Shown piece after piece: positions 6,571-11,920 of a DNA stretch of 64,000 bases. The stretch is from assembly GCA_029864335.1 (NCBI GenBank), contig JAOTTS010000003.1:1-64000 (forward strand), given 5' to 3'. This DNA is from Candidatus Nitrosopumilus sp. Lineage in GTDB: Archaea > Thermoproteota > Nitrososphaeria > Nitrososphaerales > Nitrosopumilaceae. The notes under the pieces were generated by a model that was not told the origin of the DNA, searched no databases, and saw nothing but the letters and a program-made list of their open reading frames with translations. Position numbers and translations under genes: made by a program. How positions within the stretch are numbered: the stretch's first letter is position 1; every line of letters starts with the position of its first letter.

Positions 6571-9225
6571 TCATCCAGAAGTACAACCGCTGTATCCGCA
6601 TTCAATACAAATACTACAACCTTCTACAAAGACTAGATTGTTTTTACATGTTGGACATAGACGATCTTCTGAAACCTCTTCATATTTTTGGGATTCTATT
6701 TTGATTTCTTCGTCATGAACTTTTAATTCAAGTGAAGCATTGACTTGGGATTTAATGTATGGATTTGTTATGTTTTCAGTCACAAAAGCAGTCATGTACT
6801 CACTTGGACTTACCTCAAAGATCTTTGTTGCATTTTCACTCGTCATATGAAGGACTTGTTTGTGCCTAGATCCGTCACGATAAACAGTCATTCCTTTAAG
6901 TCCTATTTCATGTGCTAATAGATATGCAGATTTTACATCTTCTACTGTTACATCATATGGCATGTTGATTGTTTTTGCAATTGCATTTCCTATCCAGTCT
7001 TGCCATACACCTTGAGCCATAAGATGATCAGCCCAATGGATATCCATTGCTGTAACAAATACATCTTGCATCCATTGAGGAATTTCATCTAATCCTTTTA
7101 ATGAACCATAGTTATCCGCAATCTTTTCAAGAATTTCATCAGTATAGAGACCTACTTCTTTGAGAGCTTCTTCTAGAATCTTGTTTGTATAGAAGAATCT
7201 TCCAACAGTTACTCTCTTCTCAAATACAAGAGCAAATGCAGGTTCCATTCCATTTGAACAGTCTGCAATCATCGAGAGGGTACCAGTTGGAGCTACTGTA
7301 GTAGTCAAGACATTTCTAATACCATGTTTTTTGATTTTATCAATCAGCGGATCCCATTCATAAGAATGAGATTCTTTTGGTTTCTCATAGAATCCTGAAA
7401 TAGGAATCTTACCTTCTGGATATTCTGTTTTAGAACAGAGTGGGAATTCACCACGAGATTTAGCAAGTGCTACACTTTCTTCCATTGAATAGTAAGATAG
7501 GGCTTCAGATAGTTTTGATTGTAGTTCATATCCTTCTTGAGAATTGTATGGGATTTTTAGTTTGTATAAGAGATCAGCTACTCCCATCACTCCAAGTCCA
7601 ATACGTCTAGATTCTTTTGATGCTATACTGATTTCTGGTACTGGATATGTATTGACATCAATGATGTTATCCAAGAATCTTGTTGTTTTTCTGATTGTTT
7701 CTTCATATCTTTGCCAATCAAATTCATAAGTTCCATCTGCTTGTCTCTTGACGAGATTTACCAAGTTGATAGAACCTAGATTACATGATTCGTATGGATA
7801 AAGACTTTGTTCACCACATGGATTTGTTGCTCTTAGTGGTGCTTTTCTTGCTTTTGCAAATACATTGTATTTGTTAATTTGATCAAAGAAGATCAATCCA
7901 GGTTCAGCGCTCTTCCATGCAGAAAGCGCAATGAGATCAATTAGTTGATGTGCATTGATTTCTTTAACTGGTTTTTTGTCACGTGGACTACGTAAAACAT
8001 AGTTACCGTCAGAAGTATTTACTAATGCATGCCAAAAGTCTTCCCAGATACCAACACTTACGTTAAAGTTTTCTAAAATGCCTGGTTCTGTTTTGTTTGT
8101 AATGAATTTTTCAACATCAGGATGCCATGCTTCAATAATCCCCATGTTTGCACCACGTCTTTTTCCTCCTTGTTTGACTACTTCAGTCACGGTATTAATG
8201 ATATTCATAAAAGATACTGGTCCAGATGCAACACCTGAAGTGGATGCTACAATGTCGCCTTCCTCACGAAGATCAGAATAGTTGATTCCAACACCACCGC
8301 CTGACTTGAAGATTAATGCTGCATCAGAGGTAGATTTCATGATTTGCTCCATTCCATCTTCCATTCCTAGTACAAAGCATGCAGATAGTTGACCTAATCT
8401 TCCCCCTGCGTTCATCATAGTTGGTGAATTAGGTAGAAAGTCTTGTGCAGTCATCAAATCAAAGTATTCAGTGATTTTGTCTGCATAACTATCAAGTTTC
8501 TTTGCTGCAAGTAATGTCAAAAGATCTTTGAAGCTTACTTTCATTTGACCTTTGTTTGCAAGAGTCACGTAGTGATTGATTAAAGATCTGAAATGCCATT
8601 TGTTGAAGAAATAATTTCCTATTTTGAATTTATAATCAAAGGCATCTAGTTTTTCAAGATAAGATTTTGCTTCTTCTACATTTTGTTTGATGTTTCCTGA
8701 TTTGTCAAAGACTTGTGAATCATATAGAATATCACCAATTCCTACCAGAATTGCAACACGTTCAAACATTTGAGTTGGAGATTCAATAATCTCATTTTTT
8801 GCATTTCTGAAAAGATATCTTGATGCTAGAACCCTAAGACAATTCAGATCAAACTTTTTGGAAACTGGGTCAAGGGTCTTTAGATTCAAGACCTTCATTT
8901 TCTCTTCTCTAAGTTTTCTTCTCTCATGTCTGTAAACGATGTATGCTTTTGCAATATCGCTATTTCCACTATCAATTAAAGTAGATTCTACAATATCCTG
9001 TATATCTTCAACAGTAGGTGTTCTAGTACTGGTAAATCCTTGCTCAACTAGTTTGTTAACTACATTCTCTGCTAGTTGATCGGCCATACCACGATCGGCT
9101 TTAGAAGTGGCGGCCAATGCCCGAAATATGGCATTTGAAATTTTATTTTGATTGAAAGCCGTTACTGCCCCACTGCGCTTACGGATCTCACTGATCGTAT
9201 TTTCAATTTGTGAATTGTCCATCAT
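6571..9225 (-). CDS. nrdJ: Adenosylcobalamin-dependent (class II) ribonucleotide reductase
   Basis: The 884-aa enzyme reduces ribonucleotides to deoxyribonucleotides using a thiyl radical made from coenzyme B12. In order it has an N-terminal ATP-cone (residues about 10-110) for allosteric dNTP control, the active-site barrel with GRLGQLSACFVLGMEDGM, the specificity region KSGGGVGINYSDLR, NPCGEQSLYPYESCNLGSINL carrying the catalytic Cys and Glu, PTGTLS (substrate phosphate) and a C-terminal zinc-ribbon-like tail CPTCKN...CIECGYSGC used in cysteine rereduction. I start it at the ATGATG at 9225 because GGAGGGG lies 5 nt upstream; an earlier in-frame ATG at 9267 has no such site. It is followed upstream by a putative regulator gene, and its 5' region holds a palindrome also found before that gene. 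Confidence 0.95.
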   Translation of the reverse strand: MMDNSQIENTISEIRKRSGAVTAFNQNKISNAIFRALAATSKADRGMADQLAENVVNKLVEQGFTSTRTPTVEDIQDIVESTLIDSGNSDIAKAYIVYRHERRKLREEKMKVLNLKTLDPVSKKFDLNCLRVLASRYLFRNAKNEIIESPTQMFERVAILVGIGDILYDSQVFDKSGNIKQNVEEAKSYLEKLDAFDYKFKIGNYFFNKWHFRSLINHYVTLANKGQMKVSFKDLLTLLAAKKLDSYADKITEYFDLMTAQDFLPNSPTMMNAGGRLGQLSACFVLGMEDGMEQIMKSTSDAALIFKSGGGVGINYSDLREEGDIVASTSGVASGPVSFMNIINTVTEVVKQGGKRRGANMGIIEAWHPDVEKFITNKTEPGILENFNVSVGIWEDFWHALVNTSDGNYVLRSPRDKKPVKEINAHQLIDLIALSAWKSAEPGLIFFDQINKYNVFAKARKAPLRATNPCGEQSLYPYESCNLGSINLVNLVKRQADGTYEFDWQRYEETIRKTTRFLDNIIDVNTYPVPEISIASKESRRIGLGVMGVADLLYKLKIPYNSQEGYELQSKLSEALSYYSMEESVALAKSRGEFPLCSKTEYPEGKIPISGFYEKPKESHSYEWDPLIDKIKKHGIRNVLTTTVAPTGTLSMIADCSNGMEPAFALVFEKRVTVGRFFYTNKILEEALKEVGLYTDEILEKIADNYGSLKGLDEIPQWMQDVFVTAMDIHWADHLMAQGVWQDWIGNAIAKTINMPYDVTVEDVKSAYLLAHEIGLKGMTVYRDGSRHKQVLHMTSENATKIFEVSPSEYMTAFVTENITNPYIKSQVNASLELKVHDEEIKIESQKYEEVSEDRLCPTCKNNLVFVEGCSICIECGYSGCTSG

Positions 9226-9384
9226 AATTTCCCCTCCATGCTTAGAACTAATATGGATATAACTCATGTGCTCGAAAAGTTTTGATCTTGTCCCGTTAAT
9301 GAGTCAATTTTTTTAATACTGTTACTATGAAAATCATATTGGCATAACATTGATGATAGTAATAATGATCACTAAATACGGTTC

Positions 9385-9410
9385 TGATCAAAAATTTTTG
9401 AAAAATGATC
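9385..9410. promoter_or_regulatory. Operator-like imperfect palindrome upstream of nrdJ
   Basis: A 26-bp element opens TGATCAAAAAT and closes AAAAATGATC, with a perfect 14-bp palindrome TCAAAAATTTTTGA at 9388-9401. It lies about 160 bp before the nrdJ ATG. The opposite strand of 11644-11668, just upstream of the HTH-ATP-cone gene, opens with the same TGATCAAAAAT and closes with AAATGATC at almost the same spacing. Binding by the adjacent regulator is inference. Confidence 0.5.
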
Positions 9411-9435: not shown

Positions 9436-11601
9436 TCAGACAACATATGGAGACTTGCATTTTGGACATTTGTCCTCAAATGGTTCATCCTTAAATCCAC
9501 ATTCACCACATATTGCAATTTTTCTTACAGGCTTGAAAGAGGTTATAAGTTCTGATGCTTTCTCAAGTGATTTTTTGATTTCGTCTATCTTTGTATCATT
9601 ATCAATTTGCAAAGTCACAAGTAAACCTCCACTTAAAATTTTTGAGAGCTTATTAGCTTCGACTATAGGCTCGCTTTTGTTACTATAATTGGTAATTTCA
9701 GAGGCATTGATGACTATTCCTTGAGAATAAGAGTCACCCTCCATTGAATTTAAGGCAGAATTTTTTCCATATTTTTCGCCATCCAGAGTAGCAAAACGGA
9801 TAGATGCCTCAGTTTCAGTCATACAAATTGCAACAGTATCACCTAGTTCTTTGCCTTTTTTGGCTCCAACATCAACTGCGGTGTCAATTACCTTATGAAG
9901 AATATTACGTCCTTCTTTATTATCTTGGAATCCAAGTATGTTAAAGACAGATTCTTTAAGTCCTACCAAATTTACAACAAGTGAAACGGAACTTCTTTGC
10001 ATATATTGTGTATTCTTTGCAAGAATTGGGTTTAGTCCTCTTCTGGTAAGATCTGAGATCTCTTTCTTTCTTAATGCCATAGATGATAGTGCAGGTTTCA
10101 TTAGTAATGCAAGTCTTGCTCTAAAATAAGTTTCATCTTTGTTTGATTCAAATGCAAGTCTTGGAAGATTTATCGAAACAGATTCCAAGTTTATTGAAAG
10201 TGGAGTTGTGATCTTTGTAGATCCATTTGTAACACCAGAGCTAGAAGTTTGACCTTTAGCAAACATTACGTGTCCACCAATAGAAATTATTTCAGCCATT
10301 GATTCTGAAACATCAGTAATTTTTCCTTTATCAACATCTATTATCAAACCAATTTTTGGAATTGGTGTAATCTTTGTGTAATTTTTGTATGCATTGATAA
10401 TTGAATTAATTATTTTTGCATCAGTTCCTAATTGTAATCTAATTGATATCTTTGTACTTGTTTTATTGTATTTTGTAGTTGTAGATGCAGTTGCAAATGC
10501 ATCTGTTAGTTTTTGTTCAAGTTCTGTAAGAGACTTCGAATGTTTTGTAAATAATTGTACCAGACCATCAATTACAACTTCTTGTGAAGCTTCTTTTGAA
10601 AGAAGGGCAATAACAATAGATAATGAACTTGTAATGTCATCAAGTTGTTTTGATGCAGGAATTCTTGATACGTCAAGATATTTTCCGCCAAGATTTATTC
10701 CATCTTCGATTAATTCTTTGACATTTACAAATATTGTATCAGGAATCATAGACCAAATTCCAGGATTAGTAATATGCAAGTCTCCAGAAAGATGAGAATC
10801 TGCTACATCTTTTGGTAGGATGTTTGTAAGTAGGTGTTCAGCAAACACTCTTTGTCCTGTGTTAAAGAGAAGGCCTTCAGCACCGTTATCGACATTATCT
10901 AAATTAGAAATCATCTCCTGAACGTCATAAACAGGCAGTCCTAGGCGTGCAAGTTTGTTCCTGTATTCCTCATGACCATGCTCAAGGAGAACAGAATTCA
11001 CCATTTCTCTGATAAGTGAGCCAGTAAGATAGGTAGTCTGATATTTGTAAATTCTATTTTCAACCTCTTCAGTGATTTTTTGTGCAAGCTCCAATGGGAG
11101 ACTTCCTTCACGAACTAATGATTGAATAATTTTGTGTGAATTAAATTCCTCAATTGATTGATGAGATGTTCTAACATACATTTTTCCACTTTCAATAATT
11201 GATCTTTCTTCGATTTGTCTTGCCAAACTCAAAACTAATTTTCCAAGATTTGTAATTGTGTATCGTCTTTCAGATTTGTTTAGTGCAACAAGTGATTGTC
11301 TGAGTAATTTTCTCAAGTGGTATGCAAATTTTCCACTTTCCTTTTTTGATTTGAAACCTGCCAGAGATTTTAACTCAGAATAGGTCAAAGGGCCTTTAGA
11401 ATTTAAGATTCTAAGAATATCAATTCTGTTTGGACTTGCCATTACAGAGAAGATCATCCTTACACGTTTTGATGTAGATTGTAAAATTCCACTTCTCTTT
11501 GGTGATGAATCAGAAGTCAGGTCAGATTCTAAATCTAAATCATCGTCATCATCTAAGCCAACATCTAGATCTAATTCTAAATCTTTATCACTCATTTTCA
11601 T
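9436..11601 (-). CDS. Putative nucleotide-sensing transcription regulator: HTH + ATP-cone + degenerate NrdD
   Basis: The 721-aa protein starts with an acidic tail (residues 6-30), then an ArsR-like winged helix (about 45-125: ASPNRIDILRILNSKGPLTY, FAYHLRKLL). An ATP-cone follows (about 140-230: KMYVRTSHQSIEEFNSHKI). Next is a region like the class III reductase NrdD (HLSGDLHITNPGIW near 270; NLPRLAFES near 470; VGLKESVFNILGF near 550). It closes with a zinc ribbon CGEC...CPKC and stops nine residues after the last ligand pair begins. NrdD proteins continue there into the glycyl-radical loop, which is absent. Only five cysteines exist, four in the ribbon, so the reductase thiyl/redox cysteines are missing too. 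The protein is therefore unlikely to be an enzyme. By analogy with bacterial NrdR (zinc ribbon + ATP-cone) it may sense dATP/ATP and control nrdJ. Start could also be ATG at 11595. Confidence 0.8.
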   Translation of the reverse strand: MKMSDKDLELDLDVGLDDDDDLDLESDLTSDSSPKRSGILQSTSKRVRMIFSVMASPNRIDILRILNSKGPLTYSELKSLAGFKSKKESGKFAYHLRKLLRQSLVALNKSERRYTITNLGKLVLSLARQIEERSIIESGKMYVRTSHQSIEEFNSHKIIQSLVREGSLPLELAQKITEEVENRIYKYQTTYLTGSLIREMVNSVLLEHGHEEYRNKLARLGLPVYDVQEMISNLDNVDNGAEGLLFNTGQRVFAEHLLTNILPKDVADSHLSGDLHITNPGIWSMIPDTIFVNVKELIEDGINLGGKYLDVSRIPASKQLDDITSSLSIVIALLSKEASQEVVIDGLVQLFTKHSKSLTELEQKLTDAFATASTTTKYNKTSTKISIRLQLGTDAKIINSIINAYKNYTKITPIPKIGLIIDVDKGKITDVSESMAEIISIGGHVMFAKGQTSSSGVTNGSTKITTPLSINLESVSINLPRLAFESNKDETYFRARLALLMKPALSSMALRKKEISDLTRRGLNPILAKNTQYMQRSSVSLVVNLVGLKESVFNILGFQDNKEGRNILHKVIDTAVDVGAKKGKELGDTVAICMTETEASIRFATLDGEKYGKNSALNSMEGDSYSQGIVINASEITNYSNKSEPIVEANKLSKILSGGLLVTLQIDNDTKIDEIKKSLEKASELITSFKPVRKIAICGECGFKDEPFEDKCPKCKSPYVV

Positions 11602-11643: not shown

Positions 11644-11668
11644 GATCATTTCTAAACATTTTTGATCA
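11644..11668. promoter_or_regulatory. Second copy of the nrd operator-like palindrome
   Basis: This 25-bp element runs GATCATTTC...ATTTTTGATCA on the plus strand. Its reverse complement matches the element at 9385-9410 at both ends. It lies 43-67 nt before the ATG of the HTH-ATP-cone gene, just upstream of a TATA-like TCTTATTTAC, a position suited to autoregulation. A looser relative (AAATGATCC...TTGATCA) occurs at about 11732-11762. Confidence 0.5.
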
Positions 11669-11758
11669 GATTTGTAATTTATCGATAAAAAATTTGAAAC
11701 TCTAATAGTTATTTTTTTAAAAAATCTAAAAAATGATCCATTTTGAGATCTTTTTTGA

Positions 11759-11920
11759 TCAGTTTTCTTTAACATCAAGTGAAAATTCTGATGTGGAAAG
11801 TTTTTGTCCACATGAGGGACATTTTCCATTAGTCGGATTCATAACATCTTTTAGAGATTTTAGCATTTTCATATTTGTGATCTTCTCTCCACATTTACCA
11901 CATGTAATTTCAACAGACAT
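11759..11920 (-). CDS. 53-aa double-CxxC zinc-ribbon protein
   Basis: A short gene starting MSVEITCGKCGEKITNMK and containing a second pair CPSCGQ before ending SLDVKEN. The two CxxC pairs are 27 residues apart, as in a rubredoxin-like zinc knuckle. Such mini-proteins often bind nucleic acid or larger partners. It sits on the same strand upstream of the HTH-ATP-cone gene, about 160 bp away, and could belong to its regulatory neighbourhood. No known family could be named. Confidence 0.7.
   Translation of the reverse strand: MSVEITCGKCGEKITNMKMLKSLKDVMNPTNGKCPSCGQKLSTSEFSLDVKEN

Follow-up and report, generated by a model that had tools for sequence, protein, structure and literature searches.

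A winged-helix relative of class III ribonucleotide reductase as a candidate regulator of ribonucleotide reductase genes in Thermoproteota

In the genome of a Candidatus Nitrosopumilus archaeon, the gene beside that of a ribonucleotide reductase (RNR) encodes a protein with a winged helix in front and the body of another type of RNR behind it. What does such a protein do? In the literature searched we found no account of how dNTP supply is controlled in archaea that lack NrdR, the bacterial RNR repressor, and the protein offers a concrete, near-universal candidate for this task, with candidate operators, in an archaeal group that ranks among the most abundant. A search of the open-access full-text literature gave no description of such a protein, and a term search of two RNR surveys (PMC3019208, PMC9531940) gave no mention of one.

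The window, that is, the whole stretch of 64,000 nucleotides analysed, comes from a genome of 1.95 Mb, in which it is contig 43; Nitrosopumilus and other ammonia-oxidising archaea (AOA) are the closest relatives that bear names. The gene and the parts of its product are located in it as follows.

9436..11601 (-): whole gene, 721 aa; winged helix (wHTH), ATP-cone, catalytically dead NrdD body and zinc ribbon (open reading frame, Pfam, profile-profile comparison, AlphaFold2)
11227..11469 (-): winged helix of the ArsR/SmtB type, residues 45-125 (Pfam HTH_20/DUF7347, PDB sequence matches, Foldseek, conservation)
10927..11187 (-): ATP-cone, residues 139-225 (Pfam ATP-cone, Foldseek, alignments)
9532..10884 (-): NrdD-like barrel, residues 240-690, with the NxN flap, both active-site cysteines and the substrate glutamate missing (profile-profile comparison, structure, residue counts)
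9448..9516 (-): C-terminal zinc ribbon, C698, C701, C712 and C715, after which the protein ends, before the glycyl-radical loop (alignments)

An acidic N-terminal tail precedes the winged helix. In Pfam, residues 50-124 matched HTH_20/DUF7347, residues 141-213 ATP-cone and residues 460-717 NRDD, with a further N-terminal piece of NRDD; all three families scored above their cut-offs. An earlier note, made from the sequence alone, had described this architecture, with five cysteines of which four bind zinc and an end just where the glycyl-radical loop should begin. Its coordinates and strand proved exact, and the Pfam, profile and structure comparisons agreed with its description: one of the five cysteines lies in the body and four form a CxxC...CxxC arrangement at residues 698-715, and the alignment to NrdD runs as far as the zinc ribbon, with none of the loop present. 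The upstream neighbour of the gene (11759-11920, -), conserved across Nitrosopumilaceae, encodes a 53-aa protein with two CxxC pairs that resemble a zinc ribbon.

The ArsR-like nature of the head, likewise claimed by the note, was borne out in fold and family alike by Pfam, by PDB sequence matches of the N-terminal profile (NolR, NmtR, SmtB) and by Foldseek. In the last of these, the N-terminal 188 residues were modelled separately and matched CzrA, CadC and SmtB, together with the ATP-cones of NrdR and of RNRs (E-values weak, fold consistent). The head is also the best conserved part of the protein. Mean pairwise identity among 24 homologues (set A1) was 0.86 in the winged helix, 0.75 in the cone and 0.42 in the NrdD body, and the segment GFKSKKESGKFAYHLRKL, which includes the DNA-reading helix, was near-invariant even in members only 41% identical over the whole protein. 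This difference between head and body points to DNA as the partner of the head. ArsR/SmtB regulators (HTH_20, HTH_5, DUF7347) resemble the head in fold and sequence, but their sensor is a metal site within the winged helix, whereas here sensing would fall to the ATP-cone and NrdD part.

Descent from NrdD and loss of the catalytic residues

The body of the protein belongs with NrdD, the class III RNR. Comparison of the A1 profile with a profile of 16 true NrdDs (set A3) by hhalign gave a probability of 100 and an E-value of 1.8e-46; the 568 aligned columns run from cone to zinc ribbon. An AlphaFold2 model of the 721-aa protein, built on 71 homologues (pLDDT 86), had as its best 36 PDB matches only class III RNRs, from E 1.6e-21; these came from Streptococcus thermophilus, Thermotoga maritima, Prevotella copri and older NrdD crystal structures, and class I and II enzymes followed far behind. 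Homology over the full length and the predicted fold thus indicate that the protein is an NrdD by descent, in keeping with the note's reading of its body. The neighbouring NrdJ shares an ATP-cone and the RNR superfamily barrel with it, but NrdJ is an active enzyme, and an origin of the candidate regulator as a duplicate of nrdJ was ruled out, since profile and fold belong to the NrdD branch. A phage or mobile origin was also rejected, Vibrio phages giving only weak NrdD matches.

Relative to NrdD (PF13597, TIGR02487), the protein retains the cone, the class III barrel, the NLPR and ID motifs and the C-terminal zinc ribbon, but has an additional N-terminal winged helix and lacks what catalysis requires. 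All 21 true NrdDs kept both active-site cysteines, both asparagines of the NxN flap, the proline and glutamate of the PAE loop and, in the radical loop, Gly-Tyr...Trp; the NxN flap and the PAE glutamate serve the substrate (PMC11226230). None of 71 family members kept the cysteine pair, the NxN flap, the PAE glutamate or the radical glycine, and in the 721-aa protein the entire glycyl-radical loop is gone. (These counts leave out the frame L088 9879-12302, which the tree ruled out as an NrdD.) The PAE-loop proline survives only in scattered members, whereas NLPR and the aspartate of ID are retained, as are the zinc cysteines in most. A glutamate (E341) has been gained where NrdD has alanine or glycine. 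Two homologues, L037 and L103, lack the zinc ribbon.

The NCBIfam NrdD equivalog model gave a score of 81.8 bits against a cut-off of 326, so the protein failed it. The glycyl-radical domain PF01228 was absent from all 41 genomes searched, the window's own and 40 relatives, and the own genome held no second NRDD match. The earlier note had asked whether the radical glycine and the thiyl cysteine are lost in all homologues, and had named a radical domain encoded elsewhere as a finding that would overturn its idea; the loss extends to 71 of 71 members for both the cysteine pair and the glycine, and a split-subunit reductase was rejected on the strength of the 41 genomes. Judged by its residues, the protein cannot be a reductase of a known kind.

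In three loci a dead paralogue stands immediately 5' of a true nrdD (L088 7301-9646, -; L090 6128-8437, -; L091 1-1749, +). Alanine replaces the radical glycine in these paralogues and the active-site cysteines are missing. They could be mistaken for alanyl-radical enzymes, and aminoacyl-radical enzymes with alanine do exist (PMC11528403).

Linkage to reductase genes and candidate operators

The gene next to the candidate regulator, and the promoter elements to which we refer below, are the following.

6571..9267 (-): nrdJ, adenosylcobalamin-dependent (class II) RNR with an ATP-cone of its own (open reading frame, Pfam, NCBIfam)
9326..9338 (no strand): palindrome TATGAANTTCATA, with one mismatch in the window, 113 bp 5' of the likely nrdJ start (conservation)
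9284..9410 (no strand): four GATC boxes 5' of nrdJ, at 9284, 9367, 9386 and 9407 (GATC counts)
11644..11760 (no strand): five GATC boxes 5' of the candidate regulator gene, at 11644, 11664, 11735, 11747 and 11757 (GATC counts)

The next gene 3' of the candidate regulator, on the same strand, is thus the B12-dependent enzyme that the note had placed there. Its start is probably the ATG at 9225, which has GGAGGGG in front of it, rather than 9267. Sampling 200 genomes of the class gave a homologue of the candidate regulator in 185, which excludes chance, and among more than 180 genomes the reading frame was nearly always open. It adjoined nrdJ in all 20 diverse loci. Among the loci checked, NrdJ was encoded directly downstream on the same strand in 101 and tail to tail in 3; a true nrdD lay directly 3' instead in 3 (L088, L090, L091), and the flank contained no RNR gene in 26. 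Constant association with nrdJ, a point that the note had raised for survey, holds for the first two groups and fails in the last two. Nearly all of the 26 loci are from deep lineages, namely some families of the class outside the window's order and relatives with shorter proteins elsewhere in the phylum.

The linked NrdJ proteins are of several subtypes; those of the divergent loci share 30-45% identity with the window's NrdJ. Within one family (f6), genome G192 has the candidate regulator, a linked RNR and a second, unlinked NrdJ, and G151 (99% complete) has neither candidate regulator nor linked RNR and a single unlinked RNR only. Genomes G170 and G171 gave no match to the candidate regulator or to any RNR, a joint absence that suggests one and the same assembly gap. 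Most genomes of family f12 encode NrdJ without the candidate regulator, which is thus not universal with NrdJ.

Other features of these loci were also observed. Genes for aspartate/ornithine carbamoyltransferase (pyrB-like by motif, pyrimidine synthesis) adjoin the pair of RNR and candidate regulator in sister lineages (L049, L050, L051, L052, L088, L089, L090). The distant relatives L221-L236 do not adjoin RNR genes, and L228-L234 among them often lie beside the gene for archaeal NAC (nascent-chain complex). Some nrdJ frames reach about 1150-1300 aa with a stretched or interrupted barrel match, as expected of inteins (L052 and, by search, G017, G018, G036, G309, G334 and G273). Two AOA contigs, L126 and L179, come from records titled Phycisphaerales and Proteobacteria bacterium and are probably mis-binned.

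Two kinds of motif marked the promoters. Upstream of nrdJ, the 13-bp palindrome TATGAA-N-TTCATA, its middle base free, was perfect in 65 of 124 loci and had one mismatch in a further 18; in most loci 103-133 bp separated it from the start codon. The window's copy at 9326-9338 reads TATGATTTTCATA. Near-matches were no commoner than chance in the 64-kb window, so the case for the palindrome rests on its conservation across genomes. Elsewhere in 12 genomes we found about one perfect site per genome, mostly not common to genomes, and this ruled out TATGAANTTCATA as the box of a genome-wide regulon. The promoter of the candidate regulator, which does have GATC boxes, gave no copy of the palindrome.

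At nrdJ no palindromic tetramer was more over-represented than GATC (14.1/kb; 4.3 expected). Its density was 14.1/kb in the nrdJ promoter and 17.0/kb in the promoter of the candidate regulator, compared with 3.7/kb for 208 intergenic stretches elsewhere whose AT content is nearly the same, figures in which a few boxes stem from TGA stop codons and the relatedness of the loci overstates independence. The longer form TGATC[AT]AAA occurred at 1.45/kb and 3.83/kb, respectively, against 0.09/kb in the 208 stretches, with the same caution as to related loci. The two GATC-richest 300-bp stretches of the window are these two promoters. A rare box common to two non-homologous promoters fits one factor acting on both. 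By eye, neither motif was found upstream of nrdJ in Nitrososphaeraceae or deeper lineages, despite a near-identical recognition helix. The boxes may therefore belong to another factor.

The ATP-cone and the probable function

NrdR (TIGR00244) had no match in the window's own genome and none above the cut-off in 120 genomes, which ruled out a true NrdR as the regulator here; NrdR is reported to be rare in archaea (PMC9110341). The candidate regulator is itself no NrdR member, a comparison that the note had proposed. Both proteins combine an ATP-cone with a zinc ribbon and have genes linked to RNR genes. NrdR boxes stand at the RNR promoter and often also at nrdR itself (PMC9110341), as the GATC boxes do at both promoters here. 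NrdR, however, has about 150 aa rather than 721, with an N-terminal, DNA-reading zinc ribbon followed by the cone. The candidate regulator has its winged helix in front, by which it should read DNA, and its zinc ribbon is that of NrdD, at the far end.

An ATP-cone was detected in almost all family members scanned. To compare it with that of NrdR we aligned it without gaps to NrdD and thence, by the numbering of the NrdR sequence, to NrdR. The cone keeps V143, E151, F153 and K157, of which V143, E151 and K157 correspond to the NrdR contacts V48, E56 and K62. T145 and S146 stand at K50 and R51, so that two nucleotide contacts of NrdR are lost. In NrdR, changes to V48, K50, E56 or K62 impair nucleotide binding, and K50 and R51 are needed for the nucleotide or contact it (PMC9110341). 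Because these two are replaced and the other contacts kept, a nucleotide may bind, probably otherwise than in NrdR. The two residues argue against a simple ATP switch of the NrdR kind, and nucleotide sensing would be the weakest step in what we propose.

We consider it probable that the protein is a one-component, nucleotide-responsive transcription regulator of RNR, an analogue of NrdR made from NrdD. That is, it would work like NrdR without being a member of that family, and would derive from NrdD without being a reductase. An ArsR-type winged helix would have been fused in front of a class III reductase bearing an ATP-cone, which then lost all catalytic residues. The winged helix of the (probably dimeric) protein would bind operator boxes 5' of nrdJ and of its own gene, implying autoregulation. 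Nucleotide on the ATP-cone, and perhaps also at the dimer interface, where the ancestral NrdD had its specificity site, would alter the protein's shape or oligomeric state and with it DNA binding, such that nrdJ expression tracks the dNTP/ATP status of the cell. Between repression and activation of nrdJ we lean slightly towards repression, for which the sole ground is the analogy with NrdR. The note's idea of a reductase recast as a regulator of nrdJ, a counterpart of NrdR, thus gains from the dead body, the winged helix, the linkage to RNR, the common boxes and the absence of NrdR; the replacement of K50/R51 tells against the part of it that concerns sensing. Further points against are the loss of the zinc ribbon in a few members, the distant relatives apart from RNR genes, candidate operators seen in Nitrosopumilaceae only, and the ATP-cone of NrdJ itself, with which the cell could in principle do without a second dNTP sensor.

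The protein might instead regulate other genes, with RNR as one target only, or respond to another ligand such as cobalamin, redox state or zinc. AOA make B12 and nrdJ depends on it, the K50/R51 contacts are changed, and L221-L236 lie away from RNR genes, several of them beside the NAC-domain gene. We nevertheless hold this to be unlikely, given that linkage to RNR is near-universal within the window's order and present in the NrdD tandem loci, that almost all scanned members have the ATP-cone, and that pyrB-like genes often adjoin too. It is less likely still that the dead NrdD binds NrdJ and tunes its activity allosterically, its winged helix being a module for protein interaction or dimerisation. 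RNR folds do dimerise and assemble into larger complexes (PMC11226230), and adjacency is kept across several NrdJ subtypes. On the other hand, the DNA-reading helix is included in the best conserved part, which matches DNA-binding regulators, the same family also occurs beside NrdD, with its unrelated partner surface, and boxes are common to both promoters.

Could the boxes be those of some unrelated regulator, and the 721-aa protein a decaying remnant? The body evolves fast and the zinc ribbon has been lost in a few genera, but the frame is open in nearly all of the genomes and the head shows a strong pattern of purifying selection, which makes this very improbable. We give the least credence, close to none, to a still-active RNR whose radical domain is split or replaced. 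The barrel has been preserved, as have the NLPR and ID motifs and the zinc ribbon, yet the catalytic residues are lost, the 41 genomes searched lack PF01228, the own genome gave no second NRDD match and the equivalog score falls short; in the tandem loci, where alanine stands for glycine, the cysteines are gone too.

Our preferred reading, that of an NrdD-derived regulator of RNR, may extend well beyond the window. We see an even chance that much of Thermoproteota, AOA above all, controls RNR genes by a winged-helix NrdD pseudoenzyme that senses (d)NTPs by means of its ATP-cone, perhaps with a part for the former specificity site, and that this control arose independently of bacterial NrdR, beside class II and class III enzymes alike. 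If true, it would show in a striking way how the fold of a metabolic enzyme, nucleotide-sensing sites included, can become a transcription factor for its own pathway. In a tree of cone and body, the dead proteins of families f40 and f54 that bear the winged helix grouped close to true NrdDs, a long way from the AOA branch; we read this as topology alone and make no claim that the family arose only once. As a hint to the donor lineage, the cone of the true NrdD in L091 begins with the same unusual VRTS as those of the candidate regulators.
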